Shown piece after piece: positions 4,437 to 39,770 of a stretch of DNA of 43,337 bases. The stretch spans positions 1 to 43,337 of the forward strand of contig JAHFNO010000011.1 in the NCBI GenBank assembly GCA_023267275.1, read 5' to 3'. How positions within the stretch are numbered: position 1 is the stretch's first letter; each line of letters opens with the position of its first letter. The translations under genes were made by a program, and so were the position numbers. The notes below the pieces were generated by a model. The model did not search any database, was not told the origin of the DNA, and saw nothing but the letters and a program-made list of their open reading frames with translations. The stretch is from Candidatus Nomurabacteria bacterium (lineage in GTDB: Bacteria > Patescibacteriota > Minisyncoccia > Phycocordibacterales > UBA9973).

Positions 4437-4537
4437 CATAATGTCGAATCTTGTATCGATAAGCCGAATTCTGTACTCTTGCGAGTGACAATCATTTATC
4501 TGGGATTGCTGTTACCAACAACCTCTAGCGATTCTCC

Positions 4538-4593
4538 CTAAAACATCTTGTAAACAAGATGTTCGGGCGACCAATTGTAAACAATTGGTTTAG
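4538..4593. repeat. Hairpin-pair module, copy 1 (in rnpB)
   Basis: Plus-strand reading: outer CTAAA/TTTAG pair; hairpin 1 ACATCTTG-TAAA-CAAGATGT; linker TCGGGCGA; hairpin 2 CCAATTG-TAAA-CAATTGG. It forms a three-way-junction-like fold inserted in RNase P RNA. Confidence 0.85.
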
Positions 4594-4681
4594 CCCAAGC
4601 TTTCGCCTAAGGCACGATCTTGCATTCACGTAAGGATTTAGCCGTTTCATTCTTTGCTTCAATATATACAAAGATTTATCC

Positions 4682-4737
4682 CTAAAACATTTTGTGAACA
4701 AAATGTTCGGGCGACCAATTGTAAACAATTGGTTTAG
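4682..4737. repeat. Hairpin-pair module, copy 2 (in rnpB)
   Basis: The layout matches copy 1. Hairpin 1 is ACATTTTG/CAAAATGT, with two compensatory base-pair changes from copy 1, while the linker TCGGGCGA and hairpin 2 are identical to copy 1. Confidence 0.85.
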
Positions 4738-4908
4738 CCAGGGATACCATATCCTTTCGGAGTTTGGCGTCACTGCTCGCACCTCTATTGTTACCAACGA
4801 CGGGCGTTACCCGCTACGCGCTCCTTTCTTACGAAAGGGAATGTTCGGACTTTCCTCTGTGGTATATGCAAGCAAATATCACAGCGATTGTCTGATACAA
4901 GGACTTTC

Positions 4909-5041: not shown

Positions 5042-5145
5042 GGAGTAATTTTTTCTCCTCCTGTACCCAGGAGGAGAGGGTCGTACTCGAGACGAGGTGG
5101 TTCCTATTGTTTTTATGTTCATTGTTTTCATGTTATATTGTATAT

Positions 5146-5285: not shown

Positions 5286-5420
5286 TTATTTGTTTATGTA
5301 CTCGCAAATATTTTATTTATAGAAATATGTATTGCGACGCACAATTATTTTTATCATTCAGTAAATAAAAAAATAATTTTATACTTAAAAACTTTTTCAA
5401 AAAATATTTTTTATACATGG

Positions 5421-5519
5421 ATCCTGAAATAAATTCAGGATAATTTTTATTTTTTCATTTAGTAAAATAAAAAAATAAAAATAAATTCCAAATTCATGGA
5501 CCCCGAATCGAGTTCGGGG
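5421..5519. repeat. Short palindromic repeats in an AT-rich gap
   Basis: The segment 5290-5620 is very AT-rich and contains no gene I can support. It holds two palindromes of one style, each preceded by CATGGA-like sequence: ATCCTGAA/TTCAGGAT at 5421-5441 and CCCCGAA/TTCGGGG at 5501-5519. A third, ATCCTGAA/TTCAGGAT, is at 5875-5895. Similar dispersed palindromes occur in many bacterial genomes. Confidence 0.6.
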
Positions 5520-23468: not shown

Positions 23469-23620
23469 ATTCCCCTGTAGTTAGCGGTGGAGTGAGGAAT
23501 GGGCTGGGACCCGTTCCGCAAGCCCTTGAGTATTCCGTAATCGGAAAGCGAAAGGTGTACAGCTCCTGTAAGGAGATCGACTGGACAGTCGATTGATCCG
23601 CTTCAACTTCAGAGGGAAAA
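23469..23620 (+). ncRNA. Structured RNA beginning with a degenerate tRNA-Asn 5' copy
   Basis: The first 25 nt (TATTCCCCTGTAG, then AGCGGTGGAG) nearly repeat the start of the real tRNA at 23623. The ends can pair as an acceptor-like helix (TTCCCCTG with CAGAGGGAA, one bulge). Between them are hairpins GGAATGGG/CCCGTTCC, TTCCG/CGGAA, CTCC/GGAG and ATCGACTG/CAGTCGAT, the last matching the tRNA's anticodon arm. It may be a decayed tRNA-intron copy or a tRNA-like RNA. Confidence 0.4.
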
Positions 23621-23659
23621 AATATTCCCCTGTAGCTCAGCGGTAGAGCAATCGACTGT

Positions 23660-23983
23660 CAGTAAGGCAGCTTCCTAGAGAAATCTAGGTCGAAAACGAG
23701 GTGAACTCGGTGAAGCCCCCCCTAAAACTTTTGTTTACAAAAGTTCGGGCGACCAATTGTTATAATTGGTTTAGTCTATGATTTTATGGGTAATACCGAG
23801 CCAAGCTCTGATGCAAATCAGAGAAGGTGTAGAGACTATCCCCGCCCGAACGTACCTTTCTGGTACGGGCAGGCCTTTATGGGAGTACTCCGACATTCTG
23901 TCGGCGGAAGCGCCTCGCTCCTCAATCATGTAAATGATAGGAGATGATATAGTCCACCCCTTTAAGTAATTTTAGGACAAGTG
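23660..23983 (+). other. Group I self-splicing intron (324 nt) in tRNA-Asn
   Basis: Exon 1 ends in U and the intron ends in G, as required for group I splicing. GCAG near 23667 can pair with exon CTGT (terminal U.G wobble) as P1. The P7 strands are visible as GACTA (in GTGTAGAGACTATCC, near 23830) and TAGTC (in GATATAGTCC, near 23950). There is no endonuclease ORF. A 53-nt hairpin-pair module (23722-23774) sits in a peripheral position. Confidence 0.88.
23722..23774 (+). repeat. Hairpin-pair module, copy 3 (in the group I intron)
   Basis: Outer CTAAA/TTTAG; hairpin 1 ACTTTTG-TTTA-CAAAAGT; linker TCGGGCGA; hairpin 2 CCAATT-GTTAT-AATTGG. The linker matches the rnpB copies exactly, while both arms of hairpin 1 differ in a compensatory way. 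Confidence 0.85.
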
Positions 23984-25522
23984 TAATCGATTGGTCGCAG
24001 GTTCGATCCCTGCCGGGGGAGCCAGATAGGACTCAGCGAGTTCTAAAACCAAATTAAAGGGAGAAGAGACCGTAAAATATAGCTTTTCTCCATCAACGGT
24101 CGGGTTCTGAAGTAAATAATTCAGAAACGCTCTTTTTCCTGCTACGTCAGAACTGTTCTCGAAAATGGTTTTTGCACGACGTGCTACAGAAAGCACTGTG
24201 GCAACGGTCGTTTGGTAATCGTAGTCAGCTTTGCGGTGTTCAGAAAGTTCAACTTCCAAGAGCTGAAGCTTGTCGGAGAACTCTTGATGTTTTCTGTCAT
24301 AAACGTCCTTAGTAATACTCTGGCTGAGATATGCTTCGAGTAATCGGTCATCTTTTATTTTGATTTGCTCATATTCATCGCGCACGCGGACAATCTGCGC
24401 CTTGTGATAAACAACCTCGGCCTCGGTATTTTTGCGAAGCTCATCAACAAGCCCAATCTGTGCTTCCTCTGTGATGCTCTCAAAACGCTCCAAAAGCTCG
24501 TACACGGGCTTCAGGAAGTGCTTCTCATTCACATACTCTCTACGACAAATCTTTTTGCCATTAGTGCAAGAACCGATATTATATTCTTTTCCACTCGGCT
24601 TGATTGTATGCTCGAATGTAATCGCGCAATCACATCTATGGCATTTCAATAGCCCACCAAAAATAAACTCTCGTGAAAGAGCTTTGTGTAGGTGCTGATT
24701 GCGCTTCTGCCGCACGTCTTGGCATCGCTCAAAAATATCGCGTGATATAAGGCGAGGATATTTGTGTTCCCAAGAGCCATACTTTTTCGATGTCGCAATA
24801 CCGCAGTAAAAACTATCCTTCAGCATGTTCTCAATACAGCTTTTTGATAGTGTAAAACCATTCAAGCTACGCAAGCCCTCGTTGGTCATCTGTATTCGTA
24901 TCGTCTCTAGGGAATAATTACCGGTAACATACAACTCAAACATCTTGCGGACAAGGTGCTCGCGGTCGGGGTCGAGAATAATATCCTTTCGCAGTCGCTT
25001 TTCGGCATCGAGTGAGACATTGAGATAGCCCAAGCGCACCTGTCCTGTCCACTCGCCATTTCTGCGCTTCTGTTCAAACGCACGGCGCACGTTATCGCCG
25101 ATAGCATCGGAGTAGTATTTTGCCAAACCCAAACTCATACTGAATTGGAACTTTTCAACAGCAGACATTTGGCTGTTGACTACTTGGCCTTCGGATACGA
25201 AATGAAGCTCTATTTTTCCATCAAGAGCCATTTCGTAAAGTAAAGCAACACGCTTGTCGAATACGCTTCGTGAGAGGCGGTCTACTTTGTCGAAGCACAC
25301 AGCAATTTTCTCTTTGCTTGCTTCCTCTTGGATGCGCTCGACAATCACATCAAACTCGTCGCGCTTGGTCTTGTATGCACTTTCCTCAAAGCTATACGCT
25401 TCGATAAGTACAAACCCTTTCTTTTCGCGGTATTTTTTTTGTCGCTCTGCTTGCGCAGGCAAAGAATTGCCTGCATCTTTTTGTTCTAGTGTTGATACTC
25501 GTCCGATTTCAATGCTTCTCAT
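23972..25522 (-). CDS. Large serine recombinase (integrase)
   Basis: The 516-residue protein has an N-terminal resolvase domain with catalytic Ser10 (GRVSTLEQ) and FDKVDRLSRS. A recombinase domain follows (about 140-280), then a zinc ribbon (CHRCD, then CTNGKKICRREYV), a coiled coil (365-430) and a short C-terminal region. The last 17 residues (LAPPAGIEPATNRLHLS) are read from the antisense of tRNA-Asn exon 2 and the intron end, so the gene crosses the attachment junction. It should catalyse element integration and excision. Its start overlaps the upstream membrane-protein gene by 4 nt. Confidence 0.95.
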   Translation of the reverse strand: MRSIEIGRVSTLEQKDAGNSLPAQAERQKKYREKKGFVLIEAYSFEESAYKTKRDEFDVIVERIQEEASKEKIAVCFDKVDRLSRSVFDKRVALLYEMALDGKIELHFVSEGQVVNSQMSAVEKFQFSMSLGLAKYYSDAIGDNVRRAFEQKRRNGEWTGQVRLGYLNVSLDAEKRLRKDIILDPDREHLVRKMFELYVTGNYSLETIRIQMTNEGLRSLNGFTLSKSCIENMLKDSFYCGIATSKKYGSWEHKYPRLISRDIFERCQDVRQKRNQHLHKALSREFIFGGLLKCHRCDCAITFEHTIKPSGKEYNIGSCTNGKKICRREYVNEKHFLKPVYELLERFESITEEAQIGLVDELRKNTEAEVVYHKAQIVRVRDEYEQIKIKDDRLLEAYLSQSITKDVYDRKHQEFSDKLQLLEVELSEHRKADYDYQTTVATVLSVARRAKTIFENSSDVAGKRAFLNYLLQNPTVDGEKLYFTVSSPFNLVLELAESYLAPPAGIEPATNRLHLS

Positions 25523-26190
25523 TTTGTTGGTTTGATTTTTCCGAGAACGATGTAGTAGAAAGCTCTGCGCATCACTTCAAAAATAATCAAAATTACTAAG
25601 TTGCCCCATACGAAAAGTTTGATGGCCTCAAAGTATGAGAATACCGGCTTAATATCGAACTGATGGCTGTGGTATGTTTCTAACCTATCAATAGCGTCGC
25701 TGACCGCTTCATTCACGGTTGCGTGGTTAGCTTCAGCAATATGGACTTCACTATTATATTTTTGCACCGCGCTGTTCGTATCGCTGATGGTCGGGTCGTC
25801 TTTTTGGACATCAGAAATTATTTGATACAAGGCAAGGTTTACTTGGCTTTGGTCGTTTACGCCTGAGCATTTAGACAAAATCGTTTTTACATCATATTCA
25901 TTTGTCGGGTCGCTGTAAAAATCCTTATAATTTGTAAAATCAGTATTCGCTAACAAGAACAAATCGAGGTCTTTCAAACTGAAGCTTTTGTATCCTTCGG
26001 GAATAGTATTGTGGTAGTGCTGAATGTTGCATTGAACAATACTCTTCTCTTGATTTAGCTGTCTTGCGCCGCTTGAAAAACTGACTAAGTTGAAAACCAG
26101 TAGCACTGCCACAAAAACTAAAAGGAACAGCACTTTTAGGAGTCGATACCAAACTTTTGTATTCAAGTGGGTTATGGTTTTTGTTTCCAT
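25519..26190 (-). CDS. Hypothetical membrane protein of the mobile element, 223 aa
   Basis: Two transmembrane helices (about 15-36 and 183-208) flank an extracytoplasmic helical domain (40-180). No family is recognised. The 4-nt ATGA overlap with the recombinase and the 2-nt gap to the HTH gene place it in the integration operon. A link to integration is inferred from position only. Confidence 0.8.
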   Translation of the reverse strand: METKTITHLNTKVWYRLLKVLFLLVFVAVLLVFNLVSFSSGARQLNQEKSIVQCNIQHYHNTIPEGYKSFSLKDLDLFLLANTDFTNYKDFYSDPTNEYDVKTILSKCSGVNDQSQVNLALYQIISDVQKDDPTISDTNSAVQKYNSEVHIAEANHATVNEAVSDAIDRLETYHSHQFDIKPVFSYFEAIKLFVWGNLVILIIFEVMRRAFYYIVLGKIKPTK

Positions 26191-29905: not shown

Positions 29906-30123
29906 CACAACCGAATATGTGCGCAGTAACCTAACCCGTCGAGCAATCGGCGGTATGGCGAAAGTGAGTCGTATAAGGCACAAAGAACCCAACATGTTGG
30001 GGTTGCCTTATACGCCGCATCTGGAAACGGGTGCGCAGGGTTTAATAGCCCTGACCTACGTGTTGGGTTTTTTGCGTCCCAAAACAGGATTTACAAATAG
30101 CATCGCAAAACAAAAAGTAGAGT
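29906..30123 (+). ncRNA. Pseudoknotted leader RNA, copy 1
   Basis: After a TATGCT -10 (29894-29899), the leader holds P1 CCGTCGA-GCAA-TCGGCGG (29936-29953), P2 GTATAAGGCA (29971-29980) with TGCCTTATAC (30004-30013), P3 GCATCT/GGGTGC (30017-30034) and P4 CAGGG/CCCTG (30036-30053). In the P2 loop, AACCCAACATG (29986-29996) pairs with CGTGTTGGGTT (30059-30069), forming a pseudoknot followed by a T-run. It ends with GGATTTAC-AATAGCA before the ATG at 30124. The homologous copy 2 is on the minus strand at 39561-39770. Confidence 0.75.
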
Positions 30124-34268: not shown

Positions 34269-35978
34269 TTATAACGTTCTGAACTCGTCCGTCCGAGGGA
34301 GCAGAGTAGAAAAAACAGGCGAAATTTCGCTTGTTTTTTTGTTTAAGCTTTTGTTTACAAAGCAATTTTTAGGTTCGAACTTATCATCTTTCGACTTTGC
34401 CTTTTTTATACCTTCGATCAGCTTGTTTATAGCTTTCGTGTTGCAAATACTGAGTTCTTTCTCATCCCACACTAGGTTCGAACCAAGCTTGGCCAAGATA
34501 GTCCTTTTGGCCTGAACCGTACCTTTTTTCAAAGTTTCCGTAAGACAGAGAGTAAGATCGACGATCTCGTTCATTCTTGCATACCAATCGACATCGTCCT
34601 TCTCGCCCTCATTCACATGGTATTTTTTTTCTAACGCCTTCAGATCGAGTGCGTATTCTTCAGGGCTGACTTGCTCGTCGCGCAACATTTCGCGCAAGCG
34701 AGTTTTCTTATGATCAAACTCCGCGTTGTTTGACTCAATCATTTTCTTTTTAAAAATCTTGTCGTTGATCTCCTTCTCCTTTAGCTCCTCGATGTATTGC
34801 TTCGACCAGTTGGCTAGATCGACAGAAAAATTCAAATTTTCTTGAACAAAGTGAATGACCTTTTCCAATACCTTGTTTTCGGGAATTGACACATAGTCCA
34901 ATTTCGACTTTTTCTTTTTTACGTTGTAATAGTGAACATACCCTAAATATTTAGGGTGCTGTAGTTGCGTAATCTCTCTACCGCACTGAGGACAGTGCGT
35001 TTTACTTCTATACGCAAACTTATGCTTGCAGTCACAGATAAGCTGATATTTCACGTCCTGCCCGATGAAATTACCCTCAGGAGAAGCTATAAAGCCGGAA
35101 AATATTGTTTTATGTTCCTGAGTTTTCGGTATATTGTTTCTGGCAATAATCATTTTAATTTTATTGTGTTGATCCTCTGTAATCAGCCGAGGCAGTTTTG
35201 GATCAAGTTCAAATCTCTCGCCCTTACTATCAAAGAAAAATCCTGCGTAAACTGGGTCTGGGAGCAATTCATAAATACGGGAGTGAGCAATGAAATGCCC
35301 ACCAATTTTCTTTCGTTTTATCGTGTTTAATTTCAATTCATTAATAGCGTATTCATATATTTTCCCGGCCGAGTATGTACCTGTTAAAAACATATCAAGT
35401 AGAATTTTTATTTTAGGCAATCTCTCTTCGTCTACCATCCACCTGCGGTTTCCCTTTTCCTCAGTTCTATCATTCAAAAAACCCAGAGAAGAAATTCCGT
35501 GCGGCACACCAAGTCGAGCTTTCTTATCGTGGCCGCGCTTAACGTTTACTGAAAGTTCTTTAACAAATTGTTTTCCCTGGCTAAATTCGACAGACATGAC
35601 GATCACGTTGTCCCAAGGATAGAACACTTTATCGTGCGTTATTATTGCCTTCAGGACACCTGAGGAAAGGAGATCAATGATTTGCCCACCCTCCGTCATA
35701 TTTCGAGCGAGACGGTCGAGTTTCCAACAGACAATGCTATCAATCTCACCCTTGAGGATCATCGACATCATGCGCGAGAACTCGGGACGCTCGTTTTCGG
35801 TTTTTGCAGATTTTGCTTCTTTGAATACTTCCGTAAAAACAGGAAGCTTGTGGTACTCGGCCATTTTTGCCGCCGCGTCGATTTGTGAGTCGATCGAGAG
35901 CATCTGCTTGTCCTCCGCTTCGCTTGATTTACGATAGTAGCCGCCGGGGCGTAATTTTGTGAAATCTAATGGGTTCAT
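34269..35978 (-). CDS. Second large serine recombinase
   Basis: The 569-residue protein has a resolvase domain with catalytic Ser18 (YYRKSSEAEDKQ) and WKLDRLARNMTEGG. A recombinase domain follows (about 150-290; GVPHGISSLGFLND, HSRIYELLPDPVYAGFFFDSKGE), then a zinc ribbon (CDCKHKF, CPQCGREI) and a coiled coil (420-470). It is only distantly related to the integrase at 23972, so it belongs to a different element or a composite island. Confidence 0.93.
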   Translation of the reverse strand: MNPLDFTKLRPGGYYRKSSEAEDKQMLSIDSQIDAAAKMAEYHKLPVFTEVFKEAKSAKTENERPEFSRMMSMILKGEIDSIVCWKLDRLARNMTEGGQIIDLLSSGVLKAIITHDKVFYPWDNVIVMSVEFSQGKQFVKELSVNVKRGHDKKARLGVPHGISSLGFLNDRTEEKGNRRWMVDEERLPKIKILLDMFLTGTYSAGKIYEYAINELKLNTIKRKKIGGHFIAHSRIYELLPDPVYAGFFFDSKGERFELDPKLPRLITEDQHNKIKMIIARNNIPKTQEHKTIFSGFIASPEGNFIGQDVKYQLICDCKHKFAYRSKTHCPQCGREITQLQHPKYLGYVHYYNVKKKKSKLDYVSIPENKVLEKVIHFVQENLNFSVDLANWSKQYIEELKEKEINDKIFKKKMIESNNAEFDHKKTRLREMLRDEQVSPEEYALDLKALEKKYHVNEGEKDDVDWYARMNEIVDLTLCLTETLKKGTVQAKRTILAKLGSNLVWDEKELSICNTKAINKLIEGIKKAKSKDDKFEPKNCFVNKSLNKKTSEISPVFSTLLPRTDEFRTL

Positions 35979-39560: not shown

Positions 39561-39770
39561 ACGTTTTACTTTTTTGTTGCTATTAGTAAATCCGAGGAAC
39601 GGGCAACAAAGAACCCGTCACAGAGAGCGAGGGGTTTTAATCCCTCCATACACCTTTCGATGTACGGCCAACAACGACAGCCCCCGTATGACGGGTTCTT
39701 TATCGTTGTTGGTCTTTTTTCACCATACCGTCGATTGCTCGACGGGTTAGGCTACTCGTATTCAGTTGTG
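39561..39770 (-). ncRNA. Pseudoknotted leader RNA, copy 2
   Basis: Plus-strand positions: P1 CCGTCGA/TCGACGG (39728-39745, loop GCAA when read on the minus strand); P2 arms 39668-39677 and 39703-39712 (CCAACAACGA/TCGTTGTTGG). The pseudoknot arms, 39608-39621 and 39688-39701, share a perfect complementarity of at least 13 bp including GAACCCGTCA. Two further hairpins at about 39625-39665 correspond to P3 and P4. Both P2 and the pseudoknot differ in sequence from copy 1 but keep pairing. A TATACT -10 is at 39781-39776. Confidence 0.75.

Follow-up and report, generated by a model that had tools for sequence, protein, structure and literature searches.

The stretch of DNA analysed here (the window, 43,337 nucleotides of contig JAHFNO010000011.1, assembly GCA_023267275.1, from a Candidatus Nomurabacteria bacterium) carries the gene of a bacterial class A RNase P RNA and a tRNA gene interrupted by a group I intron. 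Three copies of a short double-hairpin element lie in these RNAs, two in rnpB and one in the intron, as detailed below; the elements and their flanks carry no strand assignment.

4444-4903, minus strand: RNase P RNA, bacterial class A (Rfam RF00010, 109 bits), host of copies 1 and 2
4536-4537, no strand: CC, 5' flank of copy 1, the target dinucleotide, complementary to the central GG
4538-4593, no strand: element copy 1 in rnpB, absent from the rnpB of relatives; CTAAA 4538-4542, hairpin 1 4543-4562, TCG-GG-CGA 4563-4570, hairpin 2 4571-4588, TTTAG 4589-4593
4594-4595, no strand: CC, 3' flank of copy 1, the duplicated target dinucleotide
4682-4737, no strand: element copy 2 in rnpB, absent from the rnpB of relatives; hairpin 1 4687-4706, centre 4707-4714, hairpin 2 4715-4732; flanks CC 4680-4681 and CC 4738-4739
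23626-24024, plus strand: intron-interrupted tRNA gene, read as Thr(TGT) by ARAGORN with introns allowed
23650-23976, plus strand: group I intron, host of copy 3 (Rfam RF00028, E=1.8e-11, 49.2 bits against a gathering score of 50)
23722-23774, no strand: element copy 3 in the group I intron; hairpin 1 23727-23744, centre 23745-23752, hairpin 2 23753-23769; flanks CC 23720-23721 and TC 23775-23776

A preliminary description of this DNA had recognised the three copies by their CTAAA/TTTAG ends, their two hairpins and the linker TCGGGCGA, and had assigned all of them to catalytic RNAs. Our analysis agrees with both statements: copies 1 and 2 are inside the RF00010 gene, and copy 3 is a peripheral insertion of the RF00028 alignment, between model positions 80 and 81, in an intron that ARAGORN places in the tRNA anticodon loop. 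The compensatory changes reported in hairpin 1 are likewise seen, this hairpin being variable and hairpin 2 almost invariant among the three copies. Absent from that description is the presence on both sides of the element of a CC dinucleotide (TC once) complementary to the central GG, a rule kept by the three copies of the window except at the 3' flank of copy 3 (TC for CC). At the RNA level, the rnpB copies have the antisense orientation relative to the intron copy; a consensus identical to its reverse complement makes the element similar on both strands. Rfam gives no match on the element itself in the window, the matches being those of the host RNAs only. The alternative of a standard rnpB stem of the lineage, also raised in the preliminary description, is excluded by the comparison with relatives, since congeners and other members of the family lack this stem at the places of copies 1 and 2 in their rnpB.

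The surroundings of the intron-bearing tRNA contain, just upstream, a tRNA-like or partial intron-like fragment (23470-23625) and, directly downstream, a large serine recombinase gene (about 23972-25609, minus strand; PF00239 at 25049-25504, minus), which together suggest an integrated element using this tRNA. A second serine recombinase gene is found at 34269-35978 (minus strand). The window also holds two LOOT RNAs (Rfam RF03000, 69 and 84 bits) less than 10 kb apart, at 29928-30053 (plus) and 39629-39753 (minus); the LOOT family is not known to have a function. At the start of the window, the partial 16S rRNA gene contains an element-free insertion of about 140 nt (362-505), between model positions around 1156 and 1160.

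The element is a member of a dispersed mobile family in the ultra-small Paceibacteria, with the consensus NN|CTAAA-hp1-TCG-N'N'-CGA-hp2-TTTAG|NN and a length of about 45-75 bp. The strict pattern CTAAA-N(10-40)-TCGSSCGA-N(10-40)-TTTAG gives 16 copies in the genome of the window (1.02 Mb, 33 contigs) and its reversed form, used as the control, gives 0; eight of 41 near relatives carry the strict pattern, and a slightly looser one is matched in 61 of the 297 genomes of the order, some of the single matches being due to chance. Detection by regular expression and stem scan led to a collection of 187 distinct elements, and no genome has more than about 20 copies. Scanning 84,980 species genomes with a pattern that includes the flanks gave at least 116 loci; among the matches listed, the named hosts of elements with intact stems are all Patescibacteria except one Elusimicrobia MAG, which shares its sample with Wolfebacteria and is probably mis-binned. 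The hosts among the matches listed comprise Nomura-, Taylor-, Kaiser-, Vogel-, Wolfe-, Lloyd-, Zambryski-, Yonath-, Campbell-, Harrison- and Liptonbacteria, other Parcubacteria and one Gracilibacterium; a pattern match in Marinagarivorans is devoid of stems. Matches in viral contigs served as the null for the hairpins, and two stems of at least 4 bp are present in 0 of 121 of them versus 115 of 132 matches in the fetched genome contigs. A viral reservoir was rejected, with no stem-bearing element among the 120 viral loci examined. Full-text searches of the open-licence papers in PMC returned no description of such a family.

The anatomy of the element is dominated by the relation between its centre and its flanks. 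Of 84 elements that were not selected by flank, 75 have a 5' flank that is the reverse complement of N'N' and 75 a 3' flank with this property, which makes 150 matches for 168 flanks, against a mean of 47.7 and a maximum of 75 in 10,000 shuffles. The rule is valid for the centres GG, CC, GC, GA and TG, and its exceptions are mostly one-base differences. The arms are hypervariable (331 of 348 are distinct), and yet 96% of them form a stem of at least 5 pairs, versus 3.7% of shuffled arms; this maintenance of pairing among almost entirely distinct arms bears out the selection for a fold invoked in the preliminary description. Watson-Crick pairs make up 2610 of the 2723 stem pairs (96%), with 52 G.T and 34 A.C. 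Since the scoring counts G.T as a pair and A.C not, and thereby favours G.T, which is at most modestly above A.C, there is no sign of the G.U excess expected under selection on one RNA strand, and this balance suggests that the arms pair as DNA and not as RNA. Little variation is seen in the conserved blocks among loci that had been fetched by exact matches, CTAGA being a recurrent variant of the outer block on one side. The whole consensus is self-complementary, CTAAA with TTTAG, TCG with CGA and each hairpin with itself. The fold computed for a circle with DNA parameters is a dumbbell, in which the predicted core pairs have a mean probability of 0.97, against 0.0007 when NN is swapped.

The mobility of the element is shown by clean empty sites in congeners, with a 2-bp target duplication; together with the dispersion of the copies, they substantiate the small mobile element that the preliminary description had envisaged. 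The orthologous sites of five congeners are empty and the joins are clean. In the case of MetRS, all five congeners have TTGGCC where G000 has TTGGC[58 bp]GCC, and the same situation of an empty site and a 2-bp duplication is found for AspRS, Obg, topoisomerase I and tRNA-Lys. In the case of MnmA, the congener site (G002-G005) is empty but its 3' side has been altered since; at this site two genomes carry an element identical at 54 of 55 positions (98%) between flanks that are only about 54% identical, which looks like repeated invasion rather than descent. The MetRS C-terminal domain contains tandem elements in the arrangement GG-el-GG-el-GG, and a near-identical 49-nt subfamily, encoding AKSSEAGSPDASxEAFR-like peptides, is present in topoisomerase I (TopA), FtsK, trigger factor, MurD and IleRS. 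Outside the target dinucleotide we observe a weak T-rich preference 2-4 bases from NN. Pairing of the arms with the target flanks shows a marginal excess only, the shared words measuring 5.84 versus 5.64 letters.

The preliminary description had supposed that the element is tolerated only in structured RNA, and this restriction does not hold, for 60 of the 187 elements lie in long open reading frames, nearly all of them in frame. The length plus 2 is divisible by 3 in 56 of these 60 copies versus 50 of the 127 found elsewhere, so that the copies in open reading frames are translated in frame, via two of the three frames. Proteins that bind tRNA (MetRS, AspRS, IleRS, LeuRS, ArgRS, PheS, GatB, MnmA, MiaA, TsaD and Fmt) account for 20 of 50 host reading frames against 6 of 40 length-weighted control reading frames (p=0.011), an excess whose p-value becomes 0.08 once repeated sites are collapsed; tRNA-related proteins as a preferred host class are thus suggestive only. 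Copies occupying the same site in IleRS and in LeuRS differ by compensatory pairs, and functional selection on some fixed copies is possible for this reason. Three 48-nt elements with a GA centre (L097 1501-1665 and L136 1054-1101, G269), two of them in the N-terminal tail of ribosomal protein L23, have a length that is a multiple of 3 without the 2-bp duplication, unlike the other coding copies.

Structured RNA is still a hot spot. Forty of the 187 elements (0.4 expected) are no more than 3 nt away from the end of a tRNA or tmRNA, and several more are in rnpB; 34 of the 40 are flush with the 5' end (offset of 0 to 2 nt or 1-nt overlap), five are at the 3' end and one is inside tmRNA, and none of the 187 is located 4-19 nt away from these ends. 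The mature tRNA is unharmed because NN corresponds to its positions +1 and +2, which are duplicated. A two-base guide alone is insufficient for such exact insertion at tRNA 5' ends. A general targeting of stem feet finds no support, the other non-coding sites being less paired than controls. As to rnpB, several further copies occur in other genomes, and three of them (L113 1075-1132, L139 1044-1101 and L121 980-1035) share one insertion site, with CA flanks and a TG centre; two of the three have the same stems with different loops and the third has different stems. One tmRNA gene (L192) harbours one element inside and another flush with its 5' end (5052-5106 and 5387-5442), both of the CTAGA variant, and at L009 (1501-1561) an element sits in the loop of an apparent intrinsic terminator (gcctc...gaggc, then a T-run).

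The model we propose, to which we give a slightly better than even chance, is that of a non-autonomous single-stranded DNA element whose centre is a two-base guide and which is mobilised in trans by a Y1 (HUH) transposase. The moving form would be a single strand, probably circular, folded as a dumbbell in which TTTAG-NN-CTAAA pairs with TCG-N'N'-CGA via the 4-bp core GNNC/GN'N'C, leaving TAA/C and G/TTA as small internal loops beside two stems arbitrary in sequence. The N'N' guide would have two pairing partners, the NN at the end of the element itself and the NN of the target, and this double function would explain that the left flank, the right flank and the centre agree; we infer the guide role from the flank-centre correlation in the sequences. 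Through the self-complementary consensus, either strand of an integrated copy could refold. The copies would survive where they are harmless, namely in intergenic DNA, peripheral RNA loops, pre-tRNA leaders and protein surface loops, and the recognition of a folded acceptor stem is one possibility for the targeting of tRNA 5' ends.

The cutting enzyme would most likely be a Y1 transposase of the RAYT/IS200 type. Among the 28 genomes with at least two elements, 26 have Y1 genes, versus 156 of the 269 others (p=1.5e-4, ignoring phylogeny), and no such association is seen for the rve control (8 of 28 element-rich versus 66 of 269 other genomes). The Y1 proteins of most element-rich genomes are RAYT-like, scoring about 40 bits against the NCBIfam cut-off of 80 for REP-associated tyrosine transposase. 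The predictable change of the cut dinucleotide, including to CC, GA and GT, upon alteration of the tetranucleotide guide of the Marinomonas TnpA-REP (PMC8266576) offers a precedent. No element or half-element is found within about 3 kb of 20 RAYT-like genes, so that any action of Y1 would have to be in trans; there are no elements around the other Y1 loci examined either, and the ends of the element are lacking at the IS200-type locus of the window's genome. An autonomous Y1 partner linked to the family (a REPtron or an IS with the same ends) was accordingly discarded, none having been found. Y1 genes are lacking in two genomes that are 99-100% complete and show 2-3 pattern matches (G143 and G166), as well as in G005 (85% complete), where six matches occur. 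Furthermore, known HUH elements make no strict target duplication, and the right-hand NN would here have to be the element's own.

The flanks would also fit a conservative recombinase with a 2-bp crossover, either a serine recombinase of the IS607 type or an enzyme of the IS110 type, through which the circle ends TTTAG-NN-CTAAA recombine with the target NN: the 2-bp core would match in circle and target and stand on both sides after integration, and the T-rich preference outside NN partly echoes the TTT..AAA of the circle junction. This mode of movement is nevertheless unlikely in our opinion. A double-stranded DNA circle of about 58 bp would be strongly strained, and a conservative recombinase does not itself require N'N' at the centre. 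PF00239 is absent from six element-bearing genomes (G040, G066, G070, G106, G164 and G269), which rejects a serine recombinase as the necessary enzyme, and serine recombinases show no association with the element (21/27 versus 19/27 genomes). We judge equally improbable that the element works for the host as an RNA structure, such as a signal governing the processing or stability of tRNAs, tmRNA, RNase P RNA and tRNA-related mRNAs, and that it is selected for its fold, often lost, and of ancient mobility. Distant genomes do carry the element at shared sites, with arms that differ by compensatory changes (IleRS, LeuRS, the MetRS C-terminal domain and rnpB); this, the exact placement at tRNA 5' ends and the excess of tRNA-binding host proteins would be expected of such a signal. 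It is difficult to reconcile with elements that occur in both orientations, within coding genes, inside a terminator loop and in intergenic DNA, with the absence of a shared position relative to transcripts, with same-genus orthologues devoid of the element and with stems lacking the G.U bias of RNA selection. The 98% identical element between 54% identical flanks also makes vertical descent hard to sustain.

The copies flush with tRNA and tmRNA 5' ends, which are RNase P sites, and those in RNase P RNA itself evoke a mobility in RNA form, a circular RNA dumbbell that would insert at the ends of RNAs, for instance where RNase P cleaves pre-tRNAs, and then be copied back to DNA; we regard this as very unlikely, for it leaves the 2-bp duplication and the copies in protein genes unexplained, and the symmetry of both strands and the low G.U content point to DNA. 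As for a chance similarity of unrelated hairpins with common short motifs, the motifs are indeed short and single strict matches in some genomes are chance by the control; it is refuted, to the point of being negligible, by the 0 of 121 viral matches with two stems, the 0 control matches against 16, the flank-centre rule and the target duplications.

Among known systems, the element is a short palindromic non-autonomous element, REP/REPIN-like in its possible working and RPE-like in the sites where it is tolerated, and a member of neither group. With the REP, BIME and REPIN sequences served by TnpA-REP (RAYT, Y1/HUH) it shares short palindromes arranged as inverted pairs, a tag conserved at the foot of the hairpin and, with two exceptions among the 28 element-rich genomes, Y1 genes in the same genome; in the REP systems, dinucleotide cleavage sites beside the hairpin are set by a guide in the tag (PMC8266576; PMC6006769). 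The REP tag is GTAG or CGTC, whereas the blocks of the element are CTAA(A) and TCG, with GTAG absent. REPs flank their cognate tnpA-REP gene in the REPtron, and the elements have no linked transposase gene; REP copies are similar to each other and extragenic, in contrast to the distinct arms and the coding copies described above; and the 2-bp target duplication complementary to the centre and a copy number that does not exceed about 20 per genome are also unlike REP. Since the defining REP features were tested and not found, we do not assign the element to the REPs. Transposons of the IS200/IS605 type choose their cleavage sites by pairing with an internal guide; the complementarity of the element's centre to 150 of 168 flanks may or may not reflect a guide of this kind. 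These transposons have their own tnpA or known IS ends, whereas the element is gene-free and 45-75 bp long.

The Rickettsia palindromic elements (RPE) have in common with the element the in-frame insertion in protein genes, and both they and the Wolbachia palindromic elements are palindromic repeats that keep the frame of protein genes (PMC3767692). By their description, RPEs are set apart as sequence families of 100-150 bp, whereas only the ends and the centre are conserved here; the variable stems, the flank-centre rule and the Patescibacteria hosts are further differences. The GC clusters of yeast mitochondria are mobile hairpins of small size that stand between direct repeats of AG or ACT (PMC4478555). 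These and the double-hairpin elements of fungal mitochondria resemble the element in their short flanking repeat and in stems that are kept while loops change, but they are organellar, have a fixed target repeat and conserved copy sequences, and no centre-flank complementarity is reported for them. The attC site of integrons is recombined as a folded single strand whose stem sequence is free to vary. It needs the GTTRRRY/RYYYAAC boxes and IntI; an attC identity was rejected, the conserved blocks of the element fitting neither core box and no cassette being present. The insertions in CPR rRNA genes (introns, homing endonucleases, IVS) include many short ones of unknown type at the tops or bases of stem-loops (PMC11270868); they occur in the same host group, and the survey, restricted to rRNA genes, makes no mention of palindromic or hairpin elements (PMC11270868).

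More tentatively, and with somewhat less than an even chance of being right, we propose that these single-stranded dumbbells of 45-75 nt constitute a previously undescribed class of mobile DNA, whose identity would reside only in a 4-bp core and two internal loops, with free stems and two central bases that program the target dinucleotide, one branch being aimed at tRNA 5' ends, where RNase P cleaves, and a second adapted to translation in protein loops. If so, a mobile element could exist near the minimum conceivable size and be recognised mainly by shape, with a two-base targeting code legible in its own sequence, and both the recognition of structure only and the choice of the target by the guide would be testable with short oligonucleotides. 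The element is a new source of in-frame protein insertions and of RNA-gene expansions in Patescibacteria. At three loci (L086 near 580, L245 near 2850 and L077 near 1768), half-elements of the form NN-CTAAA-hairpin-TCG-N'N' are followed by other structured sequence ending in CTAG-CC, and possibly represent a second, more complex type of element.
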